A stretch of DNA of 64,000 bases from Sorangium cellulosum So0157-2 (GTDB taxonomy: Bacteria > Myxococcota_A > Polyangia > Polyangiales > Polyangiaceae), in assembly GCF_000418325.1 (NCBI RefSeq), contig NC_021658.1, forward strand, positions 9,376,001 through 9,440,000. The letters run 5' to 3'. The first letter of the stretch is position 1. Every line of letters starts with the position of its first letter. Both the position numbers and the translations under genes were made by a program. A model generated the notes under the pieces. It searched no databases. It was not told the DNA's origin and saw only the letters and a program-made list of their open reading frames with translations. Below are positions 41,512 to 43,274 of the stretch, piece after piece.

Positions 41512-43274
41512 CTCAATGCCTCTCTGTCTTGCGGCGCGAAGGTGGGCCCTCCGGCCGGGGAATCTCTGCGGCCCCCGTCCTGCTCGGCGGCGCCGGCGGC
41601 GGCACCGCGCCGGACCTGCTCGGCGGCGCCGGCGGCGGCACCGCGCCGGACCTGCTCGGCGGCGCCGGCGGCGGCACCGCGCCGGACCTGCTCGGCGGCG
41701 CCGGCGGCGGCACCGCGCCGGACCTGCTCGGCGGCGCCGGCGGCGGCACCGCGCCGGACCTGCTCGGCGGCGCCGGCGGCGGCACCGCGCCGGACCTGCT
41801 CGGCGGCGCCGGCGGCGGCACCGCGCCGGACCATCGAGCCCCCCGTCCTGCTCGGCGGCGGCGGCATCGAGCCCCCCGTCCTGCTCGGCGGCGGCGGCAT
41901 CGAGCCCCCCGTCCTGCTCGGCGGCGGCGGCATCGAGCCCCCCGTCCTGCTCGGCGGCGGCGGCATCGAGCCCCCCGTCCTGCTCGGCGGCGGCGGCATC
42001 GAGCCCCCCGTCCTGCTCGGCGGCGGCGGCATCGAGCCCCCCGTCCTGCTCGGCGGCGGCGGCATCGAGCCCCCCGTCCTGCTCGGCGGCGGCGGCATCG
42101 AGCCCCCCGTCCTGCTCGGCGGCGGCGGCATCGAGCCCCCCGTCCTGCTCGGCGGCGGCGGCGGCATCGAGCTCGGGCCGCTCGGCGGCGGCGGCATCGA
42201 GCCCCCCGTCCTGCTCGGCGGCGGCGGCATCGAGCCCCCCGTCCTGCTCGGCGGCGGCGGCGGCATCGAGCTCGGGCCGACGTCGGCGAAGCCGCCGTTC
42301 TCGGTCATCGTCGGAGGGCCGTCGACGACCGTGGGGTTGTCCTCCAGGAACGCCTCGGGCAGCTCCGAGGGGTACCGGCTCCGCTGCGAGCGGCGCACCG
42401 CGCGCGTGATGTTCGCCGGCTGGATGGCGCGCCAGCTCGCGAGCGCCTCGGCCGCGGTGCTGAAGCGCCCCTCGCGCCGGCGATCGAGCGCCCGCTCGAG
42501 GAAGCGCTCGATGCCCACCGGCCACTTCTCGCCGGTCGCCTCGGCGAGCGACGGCGCCGGGCGGTCGAGCTTCATCGCGACGAGCACCGCGGCCGTCGCG
42601 CCCTCGAAGGGCAGCCGCCCGGACAGGGCGCGGAAGGCCACCGCGCCGACCGCGTAGATGTCGGCCCGCTCGTCGGCCCGCGCCGCGCCGCGCACCTGCT
42701 CCGGCGCCATGTACGCGAACGAGCCCAGCGTCGCGTCGAAGGCGGTGAGCGTCGGCTCCTCCTTCTCGCGCCGGGTGAGCTTGGAGATGCCGAAGTCGAG
42801 GATCTTCGCGCGCTCGCGCCGATCGGGCAGGCCGAGGTGCTCGAGGTAGATGTTGCCGGGCTTGAGGTCGCGGTGGATGACGCCGGCGGCGTGCGCCGCC
42901 ACGAGCCCCTGGAGGACGTCGTCGATGATCGGGCCGACCTCGCTGAAGGGCAGGTACTGCTCGCGCTTCAGCCGGTCCGCGAGCGACTCGCCGTCGAGCT
43001 GCTCGAACACGAGCAGGTGCGCGCCGTCCTCGGTCTCGCCGACCTCGAGCAGCTGGCAGACGTACGGGCTCTTGATCGCCGAGGCGATCTTGGCCTCGCG
43101 GTCGAAGCGCCGCACGAGGTCGGGCTTCATCGCGGCGCGCGCGAGCAGGACCTTGATGGCGACCTGCTGCATGTCCGATTCCCGTGTCGCCGCCCAGACT
43201 TCGCCCATGCCCCCCCGCCCGAGCAAGCGGGTGACTCGGTAGCCAGCAACAACGTCGCCCGGGTGGATCGCCAC
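41493..43274 (-). CDS. Ser/Thr protein kinase with long repetitive linker
   Basis: 593 residues in the frame as sequenced, starting at GTG 43274. The kinase domain (about 10-280) has LGRGGMGEVW, K41 in VAIKVL, HRDLKPGNIY, DFGISKL and FAYMAPEQ, so it should be active. The rest is a linker: about a dozen SMPPPPSRTGG units (33 bp each) followed by seven 36-bp units read here as VRRGAAAGAAEQ. In another frame those same units read PPPAPPSRSGAV, which looks much more like a continuation of the first block. That frame would stop at 41513, one base before the activator's TTG. A single-base shift near 41832 is therefore suspected. No membrane segment is visible. It likely phosphorylates a partner recognised by the FHA activator next door. 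Confidence 0.85.
   Translation of the reverse strand: MAIHPGDVVAGYRVTRLLGRGGMGEVWAATRESDMQQVAIKVLLARAAMKPDLVRRFDREAKIASAIKSPYVCQLLEVGETEDGAHLLVFEQLDGESLADRLKREQYLPFSEVGPIIDDVLQGLVAAHAAGVIHRDLKPGNIYLEHLGLPDRRERAKILDFGISKLTRREKEEPTLTAFDATLGSFAYMAPEQVRGAARADERADIYAVGAVAFRALSGRLPFEGATAAVLVAMKLDRPAPSLAEATGEKWPVGIERFLERALDRRREGRFSTAAEALASWRAIQPANITRAVRRSQRSRYPSELPEAFLEDNPTVVDGPPTMTENGGFADVGPSSMPPPPPSRTGGSMPPPPSRTGGSMPPPPSGPSSMPPPPPSRTGGSMPPPPSRTGGSMPPPPSRTGGSMPPPPSRTGGSMPPPPSRTGGSMPPPPSRTGGSMPPPPSRTGGSMPPPPSRTGGSMPPPPSRTGGSMPPPPSRTGGSMVRRGAAAGAAEQVRRGAAAGAAEQVRRGAAAGAAEQVRRGAAAGAAEQVRRGAAAGAAEQVRRGAAAGAAEQVRRGAAAGAAEQDGGRRDSPAGGPTFAPQDREALSCSTPR
41580..41831. repeat. Seven perfect 36-bp repeats
   Basis: The unit CTGCTCGGCGGCGCCGGCGG plus CGGCACCGCGCCGGAC repeats seven times with no base change. 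It has no stop codon in any of the three minus-strand frames. It lies at the junction between the kinase and FHA-activator genes. Confidence 0.93.
41832..42282. repeat. 33-bp repeat block coding the kinase linker
   Basis: From 41832 to 42161 ten regular 33-bp units (CATCGAGCCCCCCGTCCTGC plus TCGGCGGCGGCGG) follow each other. Units with added CGG triplets and a GAGCTCGGGCC variant continue to about 42282. On the minus strand each regular unit codes for SMPPPPSRTGG. Confidence 0.92.

Follow-up and report, generated by a model that had tools for sequence, protein, structure and literature searches.

Frame break in a proline-rich minisatellite separating a Ser/Thr kinase domain from an FHA/sigma-54 activator in Sorangium cellulosum So0157-2

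Between the catalytic domain of a Ser/Thr kinase and the start of an FHA-containing sigma-54 activator, the deposited genome of Sorangium cellulosum So0157-2 carries two adjoining tandem arrays that encode proline-rich repeats in different reading frames. This arrangement creates a puzzle: Does the change of frame represent a natural and variable property of the kinase tail, or does it interrupt a tail that has evolved in one frame only? A preliminary description of the window, by which we mean the whole stretch of 64,000 nucleotides analysed here (contig NC_021658.1, positions 9,376,001 to 9,440,000), favoured the former possibility, with slips at the junction of the arrays converting the tail from a Pro-rich to an Arg/Ala-rich form or even joining the two genes.

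Repeat arrays and the native frame of the kinase tail

The features of the locus, which lies on the minus strand, are collected in table 1. The translated kinase contains the motifs HRDLKPGN and DFG and thus belongs to the Hanks type of Ser/Thr kinases. The activator combines an FHA domain, with the residues GR, SxxH, and NGT, and a sigma-54 interaction domain with the Walker A sequence GETGTGKE and the motif GAFTGA, which places it among the FHA-containing sigma-54 enhancer-binding proteins; judged by these motifs, both its FHA and AAA+ parts look functional. Divergently from the kinase, the plus strand encodes a chaperone-like protein of the CesT_Tir_1 family (PF22550) and a PspA/IM30 protein (PF04012) at 43590-44861, and these are followed by an apparent P-type cation ATPase at 44875-47691. 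Other repeats of the window include a collagen-like region of G-P-Q and G-P-K repeats with many nested periods of 9 to 207 bp (20119-21915), a 13-bp repeat, CCCCATCGAGTCG, present in 9.9 copies and having a period that is not a multiple of 3 (30900-31032), and a 95-bp repeat of 2.8 copies with 86% match, apparently located between an antiporter gene and the activator (39730-39995).

Table 1. Features of the kinase–activator locus, in positions of the window
Feature	Position	Strand	Remarks
Ser/Thr kinase reading frame as assembled	41493..43274	-	GTG at 43274, stop at 41493; runs through both repeat blocks
Pkinase domain, PF00069	kinase residues 12-272	-	profile match
Conserved DNPTVVDGPPTMTENGG after the kinase domain	42291..42341	-	TxVD motif, candidate FHA docking site; six-genome comparison
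First repeat block	41832..42266	-	13 units plus partial ATG; PPPPSRTGGSM in kinase frame
Junction of the two arrays, ATG/GTCC	41831..41832	-	kinase frame and Pro frame diverge by one base
Second repeat block	41580..41831	-	seven identical 36-bp units; PPPAPPSRSGAV in Pro frame, VRRGAAAGAAEQ in kinase frame
Native end of kinase tail, AEIPRPEGPPSRRKTERH plus stop	41513..41569	-	Pro frame; conserved in six genomes
AGAGAGG, Shine-Dalgarno-like	41519..41525	-	within last kinase codons, TTG of activator 7 nt further; conserved in congeners
FHA and sigma-54 AAA+ activator	40114..41511	-	465 aa, TTG start; PF00498, PF00158; congener orthologue adjoins kinase

The whole array spans about 690 bp, consists largely of identical units, and shows tandem repetition far above chance. 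Reading it unit by unit, we recovered the ten 33-bp and seven 36-bp units originally counted, together with three length variants in the first block, the units of which start at 42266 (36 bp), 42230 (33 bp), 42197 (30 bp), and 42167 (36 bp), after which a 33-bp unit recurs nine times unchanged between 42131 and 41835. The preliminary description was equally correct in assigning the PPPP linker of the first block to the kinase frame, in placing the junction at about 41832 with its frame arithmetic, and in reading the proline-rich linker of the second block only in another frame. The latter is the +1 frame, called here the Pro frame, and its TGA (41515-41513) ends one base before the TTG of the activator at 41511. 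The alternative tails would differ in their peptides, GAAAGAAEQVR for the Arg/Ala form as against SGAVPPPAPPSR and TGAAEIPR for the Pro form. Since the unit lengths are 30, 33, and 36 bp, the frame does survive the gain or loss of units, as had been claimed. Having a period that is a multiple of 3 inside a coding gene, the array is an in-frame coding minisatellite (VNTR), an already known type of element; its product is the C-terminal tail of a soluble Ser/Thr kinase, Pro-rich, of low complexity, and presumably disordered.

The frame in which this tail has evolved emerges from the comparison of six Sorangium genomes, namely So0157-2 and five congeners (G001-G005, of which G001 is So ce26 and G004 is So ceGT47), the six being all the genomes of the genus that the comparison covered. 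In G001, G003, and G004 the kinase frame continues unbroken through a degenerate Pro-rich repeat linker, of 135, 152, and 162 aa respectively, into the tail EIPRPEGPPSRRKTERx and a stop, the congener tail reading EIPRPEGPPSRRKTER plus H, Q, or D and then TGA. The contigs of G002 and G005 end inside the array, but the part next to the kinase and the part next to the activator both follow the Pro frame. When measured from flank to flank, So0157-2 differs by 1 modulo 3 from each of the three congeners that span the array, exactly at the point where its two arrays adjoin. Among the six genomes, the tail read in the Pro frame has 10 variable sites, eight at third codon positions and one each at first and second positions, while the TxVD segment DNPTVVDGPPTMTENGG varies solely at third positions. 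The unbroken run in the spanning congeners and the prevalence of third-position changes show that the Pro frame is the native end of the kinase, which So0157-2 retains intact but one base out of phase. Copy number and unit thus vary between relatives with the frame kept, So0157-2 being the sole exception as to frame.

We regard it as nearly certain that the tail had a single ancestral frame and no regulated switch. The natural, variable change of frame envisaged at the outset is not supported, for the Pro frame is retained in each of the five congeners, and in none of them is the tail switched or the kinase fused to the activator. The preliminary description had itself named a corrected sequence with a single frame throughout as the observation that would speak against it; this is what the five congeners have, a result which concerns the relatives and not the reads of So0157-2.

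In evolutionary terms, units of 30-36 bp have been inserted, in Sorangium specifically, between the conserved TxVD segment and the conserved end, and the resulting linker differs in length and units between congeners. The repeat linker is absent from the outgroup G036, which has just DEATIVDGPPTMT...LKTERR and a stop in the same stop/start arrangement. The linker is best seen, we infer, as a tolerated and fast-evolving disordered spacer.

Origin of the frame break

How did So0157-2 come to differ from its congeners by one base? The explanation that we favour, as probable though far from assured, is that the frame switch reflects an assembly or gap-fill join, not a real mutation. For the So0157-2 genome, of 14,782,125 bp, the assembly combined Illumina with 454 reads, and gaps were closed by PCR (PMC3696898). 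Short-read assembly or gap filling could have homogenised the ends of the two arrays and linked them in the wrong phase: a gap fill looping one unit from each side, and joined regardless of phase, would yield the observed ATG/GTCC break. The kinase domain, the TxVD motif, and the activator start are all intact despite the break, which falls exactly between two perfect arrays of a short-read assembly.

We surveyed 0.8 Mb of So0157-2 (9000001-9800000) and 1.6 Mb of three congeners for arrays no shorter than 150 bp with a match of 98% or more. There are 16 such near-perfect arrays in So0157-2 vs a single one in the congeners (none in 0.8 Mb of So ce26, none in 0.4 Mb of G003, and one in 0.4 Mb of G004); at the looser threshold of at least 95% match, G004 also proves rich in arrays, with 8 in 0.4 Mb, and a genuine difference between strains in their content of repeats is possible. 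The 16 arrays of So0157-2 could reflect either an assembly effect or a real, recent expansion of repeats. For the arrays at 9517262 and 9723486, the congeners carry about one unit or less. The comparison of lengths indicates that several other perfect arrays in the So0157-2 assembly are in frame relative to the congeners; it left two arrays of doubtful coding status unclassified (9552174 and 9573078), and several more have no orthologue in the congener stretches compared. A second near-perfect repeat that breaks a frame occurs in the same window at 15184-15692, where a 254-bp tandem duplication surrounding the TNAHC motif disrupts a gene for a serine-protease-like protein, which starts with the ATG at 14977. 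In G002 and G005 the same gene has one copy and one frame, and the duplication is probably due to the assembly or to a recent mutation.

It is possible, if somewhat doubtful, that So0157-2 has instead undergone a real and recent strain-specific frameshift, in which the illegitimate joining of two arrays turned the Pro-rich end of the tail into an Arg/Ala-rich one and placed the stop 20 nt further downstream, leaving the kinase domain and the activator unharmed. This is what the deposited sequence itself says; moreover, the outgroup without the linker shows that the tail is non-essential, the shifted frame meets no stop until close to the start of the activator, and the other So0157-2 arrays found in frame are as real expansions would be. 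Against such a mutation stand the position of the break between perfect arrays, the second frame-breaking repeat of the window, and the absence of the shift from every congener (0/5). The evidence is a comparison of relatives, and it divides the weight between artefact and true mutation, the former being the likelier. Where a short-read assembly shows a break of frame at a junction of repeats, relatives should be consulted first, and the present switch should not count as biology before its confirmation by reads.

Open frames and the readings that invoke a switch

The preliminary description had stressed that the array is open in all three frames. This is true, and indeed all six frames are open, but the property is not special. 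The array has 84% G+C vs 72% for the window, and its openness is expected from codon usage in 97-100% of simulations: When the Pro-rich peptide was re-encoded with the codon usage of the neighbouring genes in the window, all three frames were free of stops in 97.3% of the arrays simulated from independent units and in 99.6-100% of those made of identical units. The linkers of the congeners G003 and G004 likewise have both alternative frames open, and one alternative frame is closed by a stop in G001 and one in G002. From the simulations and these stops it follows that multi-frame openness is an effect of composition and is not conserved. They also led us to reject multi-frame coding, of which such openness is no evidence; minisatellites "open in all frames" are to be expected at very high G+C.

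This result bears directly on the reading of the array as a contingency locus, in which slippage where the arrays meet would exchange the kinase tail or join the kinase to the activator. Its appeal is that with every frame open any slip yields a protein, and that the frame of the activator remains open upstream through the array, which makes the proposed joining of the genes mechanically possible. Yet openness is what composition predicts, unit changes are multiples of 3, and the five congeners (5/5) are in one frame with no relative fused, so we reject the kinase–activator fusion and consider the contingency locus very improbable. Hardly more credible is the related idea of a real shift with the two-period junction as a slip hot spot, whereby a tail alternating between Pro-rich and Arg/Ala-rich forms, or a fusion of kinase and activator, would alter signalling in some cells. 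With repeat units of 30, 33, and 36 bp and no switched relative, repeat changes that alter frame or expression, the hallmark of phase-variable loci, were not found here, and neither the five congeners nor the simulation nor the unit lengths gave support for a regulated frame switch.

Programmed ribosomal frameshifting, or the use of several overlapping frames for coding, would fit So0157-2 alone, where the kinase frame precedes the junction and the Pro frame follows it; we reject it as next to impossible, and refuted for the genus, on the grounds that the discontinuity is absent from the five congeners, that the Pro frame alone accounts for the variation in the tail, and that stops interrupt alternative frames in G001 and G002.

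The kinase–activator pair and its known counterparts

With a single frame and a tail that tolerates repeats, attention moves to what is conserved around the linker. In Sorangium and several outgroups the stop of the kinase and the start of the activator are a few bases apart at most, and in Sorangium the AGAGAGG sequence sits in the last kinase codons, 7-8 nt before the TTG. Such a placement makes translational coupling of kinase and activator likely. The acidic TxVD segment that directly follows the kinase domain is conserved. Outside Sorangium, a TxVD/T motif is present in 25 of 33 activator-linked kinases vs 2 of 9 unlinked ones (Fisher p 0.005, for related sequences with relatedness uncorrected and a motif selected once the tails had been seen). 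The pattern pTxxD is known to bind FHA domains, as established with eukaryotic ones, and on this ground TxVD is a plausible candidate for an FHA docking site. In our working model, the kinase would autophosphorylate the TxVD threonine, on which the activator, translated together with the kinase, would dock by its FHA domain, and docking would then control sigma-54 promoters; the repeat tail would act as a tolerated spacer and not as a switch. None of the papers covered by our literature search deals with this pair of kinase and FHA/sigma-54 activator. What comes out as a by-product of this analysis is a specific docking hypothesis for a conserved pair, centred upon a TxVD threonine that is absent from most unlinked kinases.

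The array itself resembles the in-frame VNTR Pro-rich linkers of bacterial proteins in having units that are multiples of 3, in differing in length and units between relatives with outgroups devoid of the linker, and in placing a Pro/Ala/Ser/Gly-rich linker beside a folded domain. It differs from them by the frame break that the So0157-2 copy, unlike its relatives, has between arrays of different period. As to the pair, Myxococcus xanthus has known FHA-containing sigma-54 enhancer-binding proteins. A comparable system is PknH-EmbR of Mycobacterium tuberculosis, for which the account in PMC6213207 and its reference 41 states that the FHA domain mediates the phosphorylation of EmbR by PknH. There too a Ser/Thr kinase is paired with an FHA-containing transcriptional regulator; the regulator of Sorangium is, however, a sigma-54 AAA+ activator and not OmpR-like, no sensor domain was found in its kinase, unlike the case of PknH-EmbR, and the interaction of kinase and FHA domain is here a predicted one. 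With the myxobacterial FHA sigma-54 proteins, the Sorangium activator shares an FHA domain N-terminal to the sigma-54 AAA+ domain with GAFTGA and a helix-turn-helix-like C-terminal end. It stands apart from them in starting 1-2 bases after a kinase gene, and the resulting pair recurs in many relatives among the Polyangiales.
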